Source: Nitrososphaeraceae archaeon (GTDB lineage: Archaea; Thermoproteota; Nitrososphaeria; Nitrososphaerales; Nitrososphaeraceae). From it: DNA of 64,000 nucleotides. Positions 16,791 through 21,312 of this stretch are shown piece by piece. The translations under genes were made by a program, and so were the position numbers. The notes below the pieces were generated by a model. The model saw nothing but the letters and a program-made list of their open reading frames with translations, did not search any database and had not been told where the DNA came from. How positions within the stretch are numbered: the stretch's first letter is position 1; each line of letters begins with the position of its first letter. The stretch spans positions 62,001 to 126,000 of the forward strand of contig WHTU01000003.1 of assembly GCA_009377575.1 (NCBI GenBank), written 5' to 3'.

Positions 16791-16988
16791 ATGAAGAGAA
16801 ACATGATCCTAATACCCAAACCTCACACTACCTTCATCTTAATTCAATGCAATCAATGCGAAGAAAAGAAAGTCGTATTTAGTCACACTACTGCTGATGT
16901 TTACTGTAAAAAATGCGGTGCAATGTTAGTGAAGAGAACTGGATCGAAGGCTGAAATATTAGGCAAAGTCATAAACAATCTTGATTAA
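16791..16988 (+). CDS. rps27e: Small ribosomal subunit protein eS27
   Basis: This zinc-ribbon protein belongs to the small ribosomal subunit. The ATG at 16791 gives 65 aa (MKRNMILIPKPHTTF), the normal archaeal length. The longer frame running back to a TTG at 16713 overlaps eL42 and is unlikely. The zinc site is CNQCEEKKVVFSH with CKKCGAML. It follows eL42 by 17 bases and should be co-translated with it. Its last 20 bases overlap the 3' end of the convergent cobY gene. Confidence 0.95.
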   Translation: MKRNMILIPKPHTTFILIQCNQCEEKKVVFSHTTADVYCKKCGAMLVKRTGSKAEILGKVINNLD

Positions 16989-17613
16989 GTTGCACTAGCA
17001 AGTGTTCGGCAAGTGCTAAATCCATTGCAGTATTTATATTGGCAACGAGCTGTATTTCATTTACAATAGAATAGAATTCCTTAAATGGTTTTTCAGAGAT
17101 AGACGTGCCCAAGTAGAATCCACAGACGCCCGTGTAACAGTATTCGTTGCTGCTGATAGCAACTAAGGAACTGCAGGTCAAGCCAACAGAGCTAACAAAT
17201 GATTTTTCAGCTACAGCTGCTATACACGTATTATGAATAGATGGTGTACATTTGTCAACCAATTTTCTGACTGTAACTACATTTAGCAATGCCAGATCCG
17301 ACGGAAATGTAAGAACTTTCTGTCCACGCATTGAATTTAGAGCTCGAGACAGGTCACTAGAATACCCTAGCCCTTCAGCAACCATCACATCAATTTTGTC
17401 GACTGTTCCGTATTTTCCCTCTAGAAGCTGTGTAGTGTATGGAGAGCTAGGGCTAGATACGCACAGAATCCTGCTAAACTGGCCGGATAAAATCACTGCA
17501 CGTAACACGGTTTCAATTAGCGTTTGACCTCTTATGCGCGCTAGTGGTTTTTCAATATTATCTTGCGTAATGAATCTAGACCCTTTACCGCCACACATTA
17601 TCACAGCTATCAT
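16969..17613 (-). CDS. cobY: GTP:adenosylcobinamide-phosphate guanylyltransferase
   Basis: CobY is the archaeal, non-orthologous replacement of bacterial CobU. It activates adenosylcobinamide phosphate with GTP for attachment of the lower ligand. The nucleotidyltransferase signature is at the start (AVIMCGGKGSRF, followed by EKPLARIRG). Start is the ATG at 17613, which overlaps the cobS stop as ATGA; the longer frame from 17655 adds a hydrophobic stretch lying inside cobS. It is the last gene of the cobalamin operon, and its 3' end runs 20 bases into the convergent eS27 gene. Confidence 0.88.
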   Translation of the reverse strand: MIAVIMCGGKGSRFITQDNIEKPLARIRGQTLIETVLRAVILSGQFSRILCVSSPSSPYTTQLLEGKYGTVDKIDVMVAEGLGYSSDLSRALNSMRGQKVLTFPSDLALLNVVTVRKLVDKCTPSIHNTCIAAVAEKSFVSSVGLTCSSLVAISSNEYCYTGVCGFYLGTSISEKPFKEFYSIVNEIQLVANINTAMDLALAEHLLVQLNQDCL

Positions 17614-18377
17614 GATGAAATAAATCCTGATACAGATGATAAGAAAATGAGACAAAATAATCTAACAATTTCGTTAGAAGCCCCCATGACATCTCCAGAA
17701 ATTCCTCCAAAACTCAAATGAGCAATGCATTGGATTAATCCTGCAATAAGAAATGCAACTACTAAGGTAAGGAGACCTTCGTACCCGGTTACAAGAAACA
17801 CGATAGTCAAGGTTATCATAGTACTGGATATGAATTTCATTTTACTTTTCATAGCTAGGATAAAGGGAGAACTAAGGCCATCCCAAGCTGCTTTGCCAAA
17901 ATGTGCCTGTTCTACCATCACATATTTAGCGATCACCTCAGAAGTCAATAAGAATGAAAGGAGAGTGGTGCCGTCACGGATAGATGACAGTGTCGTAAAA
18001 ATCCCTATAAAATATAAAATCAAAGCTGTTGCCCCAGCCGATCCTATTGAATGGTCGTGCATTGCATTTTTCTTCGATTCCCTTCCCCTCTTCACCATCA
18101 ATCCGTCACCGAAATCAGCTAACGCATCGGTGTGATGCAAACCAGTTATCAAAGTGATGAAGAGAACAACCAAAAGGCTTGTTATTTGGGGTTCAAGCAC
18201 AAGTGACAGGCTATACCCAACTAAACCTGCTGATAATCCAATCAGTGCCCCAACTAGCGGAAACAGGTACATGTTTGTCGCTATGTATTTTATGTCGATT
18301 GGACTTGATGGACTATGCCGAGCGGAAGGGATTATTGTTAAGAATGAGACAACTGCCACAAACGGCTTAAATACCAA
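17610..18377 (-). CDS. cobS: Adenosylcobinamide-GDP ribazoletransferase (cobalamin-5'-phosphate synthase)
   Basis: CobS joins adenosylcobinamide-GDP with alpha-ribazole phosphate in the membrane, the penultimate step of B12 assembly. The 255-residue protein has several membrane helices and the family's metal-binding motif GLHHTDALADFGDGLM. SIGSAGATALIL follows. It overlaps cbiB by 11 bases and cobY by 4, so translation is coupled. The start is ATG at 18377. Confidence 0.94.
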   Translation of the reverse strand: MVFKPFVAVVSFLTIIPSARHSPSSPIDIKYIATNMYLFPLVGALIGLSAGLVGYSLSLVLEPQITSLLVVLFITLITGLHHTDALADFGDGLMVKRGRESKKNAMHDHSIGSAGATALILYFIGIFTTLSSIRDGTTLLSFLLTSEVIAKYVMVEQAHFGKAAWDGLSSPFILAMKSKMKFISSTMITLTIVFLVTGYEGLLTLVVAFLIAGLIQCIAHLSFGGISGDVMGASNEIVRLFCLIFLSSVSGFISS

Positions 18378-19371
18378 AAATCAAATTCCACCAACCTATA
18401 TGAGACAGTACTAAGATAAGAGGAAGCGAGAAAACCAAACCGAAAAGCATGGTGGTTATCTTCATAATCTTGATGGCCAGCATGCATTTATCAACTGTTA
18501 TCATTTCTGTCCCTTCACCTAAGGCATAACTACCCATCTTCTCAAGCTTCACTCTTAAAGCACCTGCCATAGAACTCATAGGATACCCTGCATTGATACT
18601 AGTTGTTTTGTGATGATCCCGCACAAGTATTGACATAGAATTTCTCCAATCTGCCTGAACCATACAAGCTGAGACAACCATCAGAAGACCAGTTATACGA
18701 GCGGGTAAGAAATTGAAAATAGTATCTAACTTAGCGGACATCCAACCTATTTCTTTGTAGTATGGATCCGTGTATCCAAGCATGGAGTCCAATGTATTAA
18801 CTACTCTAAAAGCTAAACAACCTACAGGGCCTAGAATGGAATAGAAGAACAATGGAGAAATAATTCCATCGACAGTACTTTCACTAATGCATTCGATAGT
18901 CGCAGATTGGATGTATTCTTCATCCAATGTAGTGGTATCCCTCCTGACTATCATTGATAAATTGTATCTAGCTTCCTCCAAGTTCCCTGCCTCTATTGAA
19001 CGAATGATCTGGAGGGCACATTTCTCCATTCCTTTCAACGCTATTGATATCTTTAACAAGACCGCAAATAGAACAAGGGTGATAACTATTCCCGTGAAAA
19101 GAGCTGTCAAAGTAGTTAAGGCTATTGTCAGGAACGCTATGCCAGAAATAAGACAACAGGAAAATAATATTCCGTTTACCTTTTCTTTGTTAAGAAGTGA
19201 GGTAGAACTTACCGTTCCTTTATCGTGTTTCAAATTCGGAGTCATGCATTCGATTAGTTTTCCGAGCCAGGAAACTGGATGGTACCTATTTTTGGGGTCT
19301 CCAAACACTATGTCTAGGAGTATCCCAAGAGCTAAGCCACCTCCCAAAAGAATAAACTGCTCATTAATCAT
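18367..19371 (-). CDS. cbiB: Adenosylcobinamide-phosphate synthase
   Basis: CbiB (bacterial CobD) attaches aminopropanol or its phosphate to adenosylcobyric acid in the membrane. The 334-residue hydrophobic protein shows the family opening GDPKNRYHPVSWLGKLI. ARYNLSMIVRRDTTTLDEEYI, VNTLDSMLGY and DHHKTTSINAGYPMSSMAGAL follow. Start is ATG at 19371, overlapping the end of the upstream gene by 8 bases. It sits centrally in the cobalamin operon. Confidence 0.94.
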   Translation of the reverse strand: MINEQFILLGGGLALGILLDIVFGDPKNRYHPVSWLGKLIECMTPNLKHDKGTVSSTSLLNKEKVNGILFSCCLISGIAFLTIALTTLTALFTGIVITLVLFAVLLKISIALKGMEKCALQIIRSIEAGNLEEARYNLSMIVRRDTTTLDEEYIQSATIECISESTVDGIISPLFFYSILGPVGCLAFRVVNTLDSMLGYTDPYYKEIGWMSAKLDTIFNFLPARITGLLMVVSACMVQADWRNSMSILVRDHHKTTSINAGYPMSSMAGALRVKLEKMGSYALGEGTEMITVDKCMLAIKIMKITTMLFGLVFSLPLILVLSHIGWWNLIFGI

Positions 19372-20227
19372 TTTCTAATTCAAGTATATCCTTTGAGATT
19401 TTTCTTATGTCGATCATTGGTTTGATTTCTCTGACCAAGTCTTGGATTTGCTCATCTAAGGTGGTGTCAAGAGCAGCATTTTTGTCATTAGAGTCCATAC
19501 CATCAAGCGAATCCTCTTTTGGTAGGTTTAGCTTCACTTTGGAGACTACTCCAAAGAACTCCTTGTTTGTCATCAATTTGACAGTCGACATGGCCGTTTC
19601 TAAAAGTGATTCATCTCCTAGAAATTTATTTATCATGAATCCTTTAACAAGTTCTCTGTCAGAAGGTTTTAGAAGTAACATTGTCCCTACGATATTGGCA
19701 AAGCATCCACCTCTTTCGATATCGGCAATGATGATGACAGGAGCGTTTACTTCCTTTGCGAGAACCATATTTGCGACATCATATTGTTGAATGTTAATTT
19801 CGGCCGGCGACCCTGCTCCCTCCATAATCACTATATCATTTTCTTTTCTGAGGCTATCTAACGAATTAAGGATAATTGGAAATGCATACTGCAACACAAA
19901 TTTTTGGTAGTAGTCTTTTGCATGCATAAGCCCATGAGAATGACCTTCTATTATTACATCACTTACGTAGTTACCGTGCGGTTCAAGTAGAACGGGATTC
20001 ATTCTCACGTCAGGATTTTTTCTAGATGCGAATGCTTGTACCGCTTGAGCCATTGAAATCCTCTCTAAAGAGCTTTCAATCCTGTAAATCTTCGAGGACA
20101 TGTTTTGAGACTTAAATGGTGCTACTTTGTATCCTCTGTCTGCAAAAATCCTACACAGTACAGTAACGATCGTAGTTTTCCCCGAACCTGAAGATGTACC
20201 TTGAATCATCAAGATTTTTGCTGTCAT
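19364..20227 (-). CDS. cobQ: Cobyric acid synthase synthetase domain without glutaminase domain
   Basis: CobQ/CbiP amidates four side chains of the corrin ring with ATP and glutamine. This 287-residue protein matches its N-terminal synthetase half: the P-loop-like GTSSGSGKTT, VAPFKSQNMSS, MAQAVQAFASR, MNPVLLEPHG, MEGAGSPAEIN and ADIERGGCFA. Full-length CobQ is near 480-510 aa and ends in a class-I-like glutaminase domain. Here the frame stops at the domain border after an acidic linker, and cbiB starts 8 bases before the stop, leaving no room for the missing half. Either ammonia is used directly, or a separate glutaminase subunit exists elsewhere. It overlaps the upstream aminotransferase-like gene by 4 bases (ATGA). 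Confidence 0.85.
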   Translation of the reverse strand: MTAKILMIQGTSSGSGKTTIVTVLCRIFADRGYKVAPFKSQNMSSKIYRIESSLERISMAQAVQAFASRKNPDVRMNPVLLEPHGNYVSDVIIEGHSHGLMHAKDYYQKFVLQYAFPIILNSLDSLRKENDIVIMEGAGSPAEINIQQYDVANMVLAKEVNAPVIIIADIERGGCFANIVGTMLLLKPSDRELVKGFMINKFLGDESLLETAMSTVKLMTNKEFFGVVSKVKLNLPKEDSLDGMDSNDKNAALDTTLDEQIQDLVREIKPMIDIRKISKDILELEND

Positions 20228-21312
20228 GGACCCATTGATTTAAAAGCGTCTATAAGAGTGGTGTTTTCTATATGCTTTTTAACAGCAACCCGAATATGTC
20301 TTAAACCCATTCCAGTAAACGTGCTGCAATCTCGTACCAATATTCCTCTTTTGCTAAGAAGATAATTGCGCACCTCAACTGAGCTCTGATTTGAAACATC
20401 TATCAAAAAGAAGTTGACGTCAGATAGCATAGGAGAAAATTTCGTCGTCTTGCCTAGCTCGTTCATCATAAAATTTCTTTCACGCTGTATTAATCTTTTA
20501 GATTTCTCTAAATAGGATGGGTCCTTTAGGACCATCGTACCTAATTTTTGAGCTACGCCGTTTACGTTCCAAGAAATCTTATTTTCGAGCATGCGATTTA
20601 TTAATTTCGGATTACATACACAATAGCCCAATCTAATGCCCGCTAGACAGAATGATTTTGTCATCGATCTCAGTATCACCAGGTTCTTGTAGTCTGAAAC
20701 CATTTCGATCATAGTATTCTTTTTATCACCTTCATCTACTAACTCAATAAAACATTCATCTATGAAGATCTGAGTATCTGAACTAATATTTTCAATTATT
20801 TGTCGCATGGATACCGTTGATAATATTCCTGTTGGGTTGTTCGGATTGCAAAGAAAAACTGCATCACATCCATTAGTTGATTCTTTCAATATTTTTTCAG
20901 TATCAGGTTTCCAATTCTTTAAAGGAACAAACTTGACCGTTGCTCCTGCTCTTCTGGCAGAGAGTTCGTATTCACAAAAAGTAGGTGCAGAAATAACTAC
21001 ATTCCTGCGAATGAATGTACGCGCGAAAATGTGGATTAGCTCAGTAGCACCATTACCAATTAATAACCATGATGGGTCTAATCCTATTCCTAGGTAATCT
21101 AAAATGCTATTCTTCAATTCCCTACATAACGGATCAGGATAAGTTGTACACAGACTATTTAATTCACTATACAAGTCACGTAACAAGTGCTTCGAAATTC
21201 CCAAAGGATTGACATTTGAGCTAAAATCGAGCTGAACCAATCCAGGATTAACTGAATATACTCCCCCATGAAGACAATCTTGGTCAGGCTTGCTTTTCAT
21301 CATCGGCTTCAT
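20224..21312 (-). CDS. cobD: Threonine-phosphate decarboxylase (CobD-type, PLP)
   Basis: This class I/II aminotransferase-fold enzyme is expected to make (R)-1-amino-2-propanol phosphate from L-threonine phosphate for the B12 side arm. Family marks are HGG near the start, DFSSNVNPLG, LLIGNGATELI, CNPNNPTG and the PLP-binding lysine in SMTKSFCLAGIRLGY. It is related to HisC, but the HGG-SSNVNPLG opening and its place as first gene of the cobalamin operon favour CobD. The true HisC is the separate gene at 45796. ATG at 21312 is the longest start; ATGs at codons 4 and 5 are alternatives. Confidence 0.87.
   Translation of the reverse strand: MKPMMKSKPDQDCLHGGVYSVNPGLVQLDFSSNVNPLGISKHLLRDLYSELNSLCTTYPDPLCRELKNSILDYLGIGLDPSWLLIGNGATELIHIFARTFIRRNVVISAPTFCEYELSARRAGATVKFVPLKNWKPDTEKILKESTNGCDAVFLCNPNNPTGILSTVSMRQIIENISSDTQIFIDECFIELVDEGDKKNTMIEMVSDYKNLVILRSMTKSFCLAGIRLGYCVCNPKLINRMLENKISWNVNGVAQKLGTMVLKDPSYLEKSKRLIQRERNFMMNELGKTTKFSPMLSDVNFFLIDVSNQSSVEVRNYLLSKRGILVRDCSTFTGMGLRHIRVAVKKHIENTTLIDAFKSMGP

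Follow-up and report, generated by a model that had tools for sequence, protein, structure and literature searches.

The product of the cobQ gene in this genome is predicted from its sequence to be a derivative of cobyric acid synthase that lacks the glutaminase (GATase) domain, and it is not filed here under EC 6.3.5.10. The loss of the glutaminase from CobQ is real, old and repeated. The short CobQ arose by internal excision of the GATase domain, not by truncation, and the loss of the glutaminase is common to all lineages of ammonia-oxidizing archaea (AOA) examined; the same excision occurred independently in bacteria. In the best reading of these data, the short CobQ is an ATP-dependent cobyric acid synthase that amidates its substrate with ammonia, either free or delivered in trans.

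The cobQ gene and its operon

The window (the entire stretch of 64,000 nucleotides that was analyzed) contains a cobalamin operon with the gene order aminotransferase (CobD/CobC-like), CobQ, CbiB, CobS and CobY-like (Table 1). The cobQ gene starts with ATG, and its product matches the cobyric acid synthase profile NF001989 at residues 5-250 (profile positions 2-245 of 480; 305.9 bits, cut-off 273), in line with the original prediction of a match to the synthetase half only. The match to TIGR00313 (profile positions 1-240 of 477) scores 274.8 bits, below the cut-off of 309.9. The synthetase motifs, namely the P-loop, QNMS, MNP-LL-P, EGAGSPAE and NKF-GD, are present and fall in invariant columns of two alignments. 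A class I GATase domain with Cys and His is absent both from this protein and from the neighboring operon genes.

Table 1. Predicted features of the cobQ locus (positions in the window)
Feature	Position	Strand	Evidence
Predicted glutaminase-less CobQ (cobyric acid synthase), 287 aa	19364..20227	-	NF001989 match; trees place it among AOA CobQ
CobQ ATP-dependent synthetase part, residues about 1-246	19490..20227	-	HMM match, invariant alignment columns, AF2 model with BioD fold
Retained CobQ C-terminal helices, residues about 254-287 plus stop	19364..19468	-	Tail HMM, pLDDT, full-length model
Threonine-phosphate decarboxylase/aminotransferase-like (CobD/CobC type), upstream	20224..21312	-	TIGR01140, 254.3 bits, below cut-off 290.55
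CbiB, adenosylcobinamide-phosphate synthase	18367..19371	-	TIGR00380, 250.4 bits, above cut-off
CobS	17610..18377	-	TIGR00317, 169 bits, above cut-off
CobY-like nucleotidyltransferase	16969..17616	-	TIGR00454, 72.9 bits, and NF045495, 67.7 bits, both below cut-offs

Neighboring genes of the operon overlap. The start of cobQ and the stop of the aminotransferase gene share 4 bases (20227 versus 20224), and cbiB (19371..18367) overlaps the end of cobQ by 8 bases; the coordinates of the open reading frames thus confirm that the latter overlap is the true architecture of the operon, as originally proposed. A frameshift or a split gene with the GATase located downstream was rejected because the next gene of the operon encodes CbiB.

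The profile search of the whole genome gave a single CobQ match above the cut-off. No CobB model exceeds 33.3 bits on this protein, with about 35 residues matched, and the dethiobiotin synthetase model TIGR00347 reaches 26.9 bits, below its cut-off of 83.3. In the trees, which hold no CobB, the protein groups inside CobQ sequences. Because relatives share the short state and the genome gave no further CobQ match, we regard the protein as CobQ itself, which disposes of the case that the gene is a non-CobQ paralog.

The sequence of this CobQ shows some peculiarities. It forms a long branch in the tree, with Glu at residue 82, where 128 of the 132 CobQs have Lys, and Ser at residue 229, where 131 of the 132 have Pro. 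The same Glu is found in three of the four other members of the genus.

Internal excision of the glutaminase domain

The original prediction that the protein stops at the domain border is incorrect: about 40 residues follow, and in an alignment the final 35 or so residues of the short proteins correspond to the very end of full-length CobQ, where its C-terminal helices lie. When a tail HMM was trained solely on the C-termini of 48 full-length CobQ proteins from bacteria and methanogens, 49 of the 53 archaeal short tails scored above 99% of 10,600 shuffles, and 40 of the 53 scored above all of them (L030 was left out of this test by the length filter). The tail encoded in the window scored 8.8 bits, a value reached by none of the 200 shuffles of its own sequence and equal to the top score among the shuffles of all tails. 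With an earlier tail HMM, built from 20 proteins of the class, 31 of 37 tails were above 99% of 7,400 shuffles, including this one at 4.8 bits.

The AF2 model of the short CobQ (pLDDT 86, pTM 0.87) ends in two mostly confident helices, 254-271 and 274-281, with mean pLDDT of 71, 94 and 96 for residues 251-260, 261-270 and 271-280, respectively. The same two terminal helices are seen in the model of a full-length bacterial CobQ (L108; pLDDT 89.6, pTM 0.88). The model of the short protein aligns with BioD (1dae) over residues 3..277 (209 aligned residues, Z 19.8, rmsd 3.1), and the L108 model aligns with the same fold (1dbs) over residues 2..492 (217 of 224 aligned, Z 19.5, rmsd 3.2). On the L108 model, GATases of the HisH and PdxT types align at about 248-457, and GatD at about 240-474. 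Together, these models strongly suggest that the GATase of an ordinary CobQ is inserted in a dethiobiotin synthetase-like fold, before the last helices (the alignment ranges give the ends only), and that its removal, with these helices kept, would leave a whole BioD-like domain and thereby an ATP ligase that is complete with a single domain. Truncation at the domain border was rejected given that the C-terminal helices, which close the synthetase fold, are present in this CobQ according to the alignment, the tail HMM and the AF2 models. When solved structures were searched with the sequence of the protein, only a weak match to SRP54 was obtained, and with a profile, weak matches to BioD; the structure matches listed included no chain of CobQ or CobB.

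Distribution of the short form across archaea

The family to which the genome belongs includes 70 genomes, 66 of which have a CobQ match above the cut-off. All 66 are short, ending at or before profile position 279, with open frames of 283-342 aa; the remaining four genomes, which are 59-73% complete, yielded weak CobQ matches only. The other four members of the genus have the short form with the tail present. Short CobQ was further detected in all 23 Nitrosopumilus-like (f2) genomes of the phylum draw, which group with named Nitrosopumilus relatives in the tree, in all six f3-g22 genomes of the class draw, and in six loci titled Nitrosopumilus. The 16 CobQ rows above the cut-off that came from outside the class in the phylum draw are all full length. 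As the short state is common to relatives in the family, class and phylum sets, a recent truncation in one genome was rejected.

In the class draw of 400 genomes, 22 full-length CobQs are present among the matches listed, and every other listed row is short. AmoA was detected in 249 of the 400 genomes, and all positives listed fall in families f1, f2, f3 and f5. The genome analyzed here encodes an archaeal AmoA as well (C222:111171-111719), which agrees with the premise of the original prediction that its host lives on ammonia. Among the 22 listed full-length CobQs, 20 come from genomes outside the AmoA-positive list, and all 20 keep the Cys (in GICGG or a similar motif) and the His (in HG[LIF]F or a similar motif). 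The other two come from AmoA-positive genomes (G175 and G194) and have lost catalytic residues. Among the class rows listed, glutaminase loss therefore follows AmoA. A perfect link with ammonia oxidation, which holds for these rows, fails outside the class, where short forms occur in Bacilli.

Inactivated glutaminase domains and the history of the loss

Three full-length CobQs of this group carry altered GATase domains. The protein from G175 (f5, Nitrosomirales-like) keeps the Cys and has Tyr in place of the His; the one from G194 (f3, from a genus different from that of the short-form f3 genomes) has Asp in place of the Cys and lacks the His region; and the one from MAG SAT137 (L079), which has been assigned to the ammonia-oxidizing order Nitrosomirales (PMC10811736), has a GICEG motif and Tyr in place of the His. 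Both residues are kept in all 48 named, complete full-length CobQs of bacteria and methanogens. We take this Cys and His to be the catalytic pair because their motifs are conserved and because, according to the GatD paper, the Cys-His dyad is conserved in CobB/CobQ (PMC5871853).

In both trees of the synthetase domain, all sampled AOA CobQs, including the dead full-length forms, make up one clade (support 100/99 and 100/98), which indicates vertical descent of the gene and implies that the AOA, after their origin, still carried the domain or at least a relic of it. In the first tree, the dead full-length CobQ of G194 clusters with moderate support (86/93) with the short CobQs of f3, the family to which G194 belongs, whereas this fork is open in the tree of 108 rows (24 of 132 rows were thinned beforehand). 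This grouping, combined with the family assignment, implies at least two physical removals of the domain within the AOA. The stages of the loss can be traced, with the catalytic residues gone in deep-branching members and the whole domain gone in the rest, so that the dead-domain forms offer a rare view of stepwise domain loss.

Two further candidate signals were discarded. Faster decay of the dead Nitrosomirales GATase is not supported by its identity (0.55, versus 0.80 for the synthetase), which is within the range of nine intact pairs (GATase 0.49-0.76). A Leu following the QNMS motif was considered as a signature, being found in 50 of 68 proteins with the GATase and in 0 of 64 without it, but the remaining 18 of the 68 have Asn, like many proteins lacking the GATase; this Leu is a weak lead, confounded with descent.

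Short CobQ in bacteria

Among the named CobQ loci, five of the 71 usable ones encode a short form with the tail kept, and all five are bacterial (L113, L120, L137, L147 and L151). The 71 loci were obtained from 80 by dropping those without an open reading frame by motif search (L102, L112, L116, L128 and L156) and those broken or cut at a contig end (L092, L110, L153 and L154); 60 further CobQ loci gave a set of 59 proteins, L028 having been removed by the position filter. Cobalamin genes, recognized by eye, surround the bacterial short cobQ loci, and no GATase was found in the flanking stretches examined.

Whole-genome GATase_3 searches, some of them in draft genomes, gave no match to CobB in four genomes with short CobQ (G409-G412, with loci L113, L120, L137 and L147), and detected CobB in G413; G409 encodes one GatD-like protein, as judged by eye. 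Because no CobB was found, several bacteria with short CobQ may depend on corrinoid salvage instead of synthesis. In the family of G411 (Fermentithermobacillaceae), CobQ was above the cut-off in three of 14 genomes and is short in all three. In the family of G412 (relatives of Oceanobacillus; L246-L251), it was above the cut-off in 14 of 100 genomes and is short in 12; the tail was read in six of these short forms, and one of the two full-length rows has an internal stop.

On the tree of 108 rows, the fewest changes of state number five, one of which is that of the AOA. L147 and L151 are located at unresolved forks, the latter on a long branch, and the bacterial changes could be three, not four. 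To our knowledge, the Bacilli with the short form are not ammonia oxidizers. Their short CobQs weaken the link to ammonia oxidation: the connection with an ammonia-based lifestyle is attractive, but it is based on a single clade, and the bacterial cases dilute it.

Nitrogen donor and the glutaminases remaining in the cell

According to a review, CobQ/CbiP adds four amides from glutamine (PMC7242693), and another review states that CobB works with glutamine or ammonia (PMC8123684). Lacking the glutaminase domain, the short CobQ cannot hydrolyze glutamine itself. The best explanation, and one that we consider somewhat probable, is that the only CobQ found in this genome, with its GATase excised, amidates with ammonia directly. 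Direct use of ammonia is favored as the simplest reading, given the absence of a linked partner, the repeated excision and the self-sufficient fold. The enzyme would still use ATP to phosphorylate carboxylates (b, d, e and g) on the side chains of adenosylcobyrinic acid a,c-diamide, and ammonia would enter from solvent, not via an intramolecular tunnel, and form the amide.

Cytosolic ammonium is a plausible donor because AOA assimilate nitrogen via an ammonia-using glutamate dehydrogenase. This enzyme, of low affinity, is reported in all sequenced AOA, and GS-GOGAT is limited to some Nitrosocosmicus; the internal ammonium level of AOA is given as not known (PMC10432482). Glutamine is at hand, too, as the same source lists glutamine synthetase in AOA. 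The strongest objections to direct use of ammonia are the glutaminase retained by CobB and the existence of an orphan glutaminase whose distribution follows the AOA clade. CobB acts earlier on the same ring and keeps Cys and His, so free ammonia does not replace glutamine everywhere. The enzymes of the CobB/CobQ type, in work of Raushel and of Blanche, reportedly prefer glutamine and need millimolar ammonia. We are evenly divided on the broader scenario, in which four of the six corrin amidations would have switched from glutamine to free ammonia at the origin of the AOA, with the catalytic residues of the CobQ GATase lost and at least two excisions following, so that CobQ would have become an independent ammonia ligase, and several bacterial lineages would have taken the same course independently.

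Taken together, the versions in which a glutaminase acts in trans form the main alternative and are possible, at a lower level of confidence. The original prediction had named a separate glutaminase gene as the alternative; of this, the CobQ-type enzyme was not found, and an orphan class I GATase with a matching phyletic pattern stands as a candidate. No free glutaminase of the CobQ/GatD type was detected in this genome, where the four GATase_3 (PF07685) matches are CobB, PdxT, HisH and PurQ, named from sequence and neighbors. The wider GATase family adds TrpG, CarA, a fused GuaA, PyrG and two orphans; several names of GATases in this genome are tentative and based on neighboring genes.

The best candidate for a partner, in an arrangement like that of MurT/GatD, is an orphan GuaAa-like protein (C222:18251-18835; L074; L198, 9201-9839; below the curated cut-offs shown), and we consider this pairing with the synthetase rather unlikely. 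The orphan keeps the GICYG and FHPE motifs, has no obvious partner given that a fused GuaA is also encoded, and has orthologs in 31 of 31 AOA-lineage genomes versus one of 18 others (E <= 3.1e-31; frame lengths of 180-238 aa, with readthrough of one stop in two rows). In four genomes (G113, G072, G094 and G155) its distance from CobB is 9-11 kb, but in G136 and G027 the two are far apart. Its class differs from that of the CobQ/GatD GATases, and many other genes were presumably gained at the origin of the AOA. Because its conserved neighbors, namely primase subunits, a UPF0182 membrane protein and a C39-TPR protein, are not cobalamin genes, the orphan is a candidate by phyletic pattern alone.

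The one occurrence of this orphan outside the AOA lineage, in G238 (L256, on the 7 kb contig G238:C63), is in a genome without an AmoA match and could be contamination or a true exception. The second orphan GATase seems to be more widespread, with a frame of similar length also in G218.

It is improbable that the glutaminase of CobB feeds ammonia to CobQ, through a complex or local release. Searches of short-form AOA genomes found no CobQ-like GATase apart from that of CobB, which keeps the Cys and the matching (first) His in all 17 aligned sequences, 14 of which are from AOA. However, cobB and cobQ are on different contigs of this genome (C222 and C314, respectively), and CobB was found neither in the bacteria with short CobQ, G409-G412, some of which are drafts, nor in G175, where, at 97% completeness, the lack of a match reflects either a gap in the draft or a loss.

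More doubtful still is that the short protein no longer makes cobyric acid, having decayed or been repurposed, with the amidation carried out by another enzyme. The lost domain belongs to the definition of the CobQ family, and this particular CobQ combines a long branch with the Glu at a position held by Lys in 128 of 132 sequences. Yet the gene is kept in a late cobalamin operon with the synthetase motifs intact, and the genome yielded no second CobQ. Purifying selection acts on the short forms, with dN/dS of 0.05-0.21 in nine of the 10 usable pairs and saturation in the tenth (an eleventh pair was lost to an N). A relative, Nitrosopumilus maritimus, makes and releases cobalamin, which the source calls the first experimental evidence of its kind (PMC8281238). 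Given the purifying selection, the cobalamin of N. maritimus and the short form in Nitrosopumilus loci, it is very probable that the short CobQ produces cobyric acid, by itself or together with a partner; the literature searched yielded no enzyme assay of a short CobQ. An artifact of annotation, assembly or frameshift has a negligible chance of explaining the data, for although this genome is a draft of 380 contigs, short forms are encoded in single-contig genomes (G007, G008, G009, G026, G027, G043, G072 and others) and their tails are conserved.

Relation to known systems

The protein shares with CobQ/CbiP (NF001989/TIGR00313, EC 6.3.5.10) the synthetase domain, the C-terminal helices, the operon context and, by the tree, descent, and differs in being without the glutaminase domain and below the TIGR00313 cut-off. 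It resembles BioD in being a single-domain protein with the same fold over nearly its whole length, including the last helices (Z 19.8), whereas the substrate and reaction of BioD are different and the protein is below the TIGR00347 cut-off. The MurT/GatD lipid II amidotransferase likewise has a synthetase with a CobQ-like glutaminase outside its chain; in this genome, however, the searches gave no GatD-like protein, and CobQ itself is the synthetase. CTP synthetase PyrG combines a related synthetase fold (Z 18.6 for the synthetase part) with a class I GATase, but PyrG keeps this domain, and the PyrG of this genome has both domains.

In the titles, abstract beginnings and passages that made up the literature searched, no description of a glutaminase-less CobQ was found. 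Doxey et al. use TIGR00313 as a marker (PMC4303638), and a term search of the available text of that paper found no mention of glutamine or cobyric acid; the same holds for CobQ and cobyric in the available text of a survey of archaeal gene fusion and fission (PMC11237513). AOA are counted among the main B12 producers of the ocean and soil (PMC8123684). If CobQ functions without a glutaminase throughout the clade, cytosolic ammonium could directly determine how much B12 is made, the number of these producers could be underestimated by annotation requiring both domains, and in vitro B12 work would gain a compact cobyric acid synthase of one domain.

Another genome of the same phylum (G540) encodes two diverged CobQ-like proteins (L257 and L258, open frames of 313 and 322 aa) that are below the family cut-off. 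Both are without the GATase and have altered P-loop and QNMS motifs and a CobQ-like tail.
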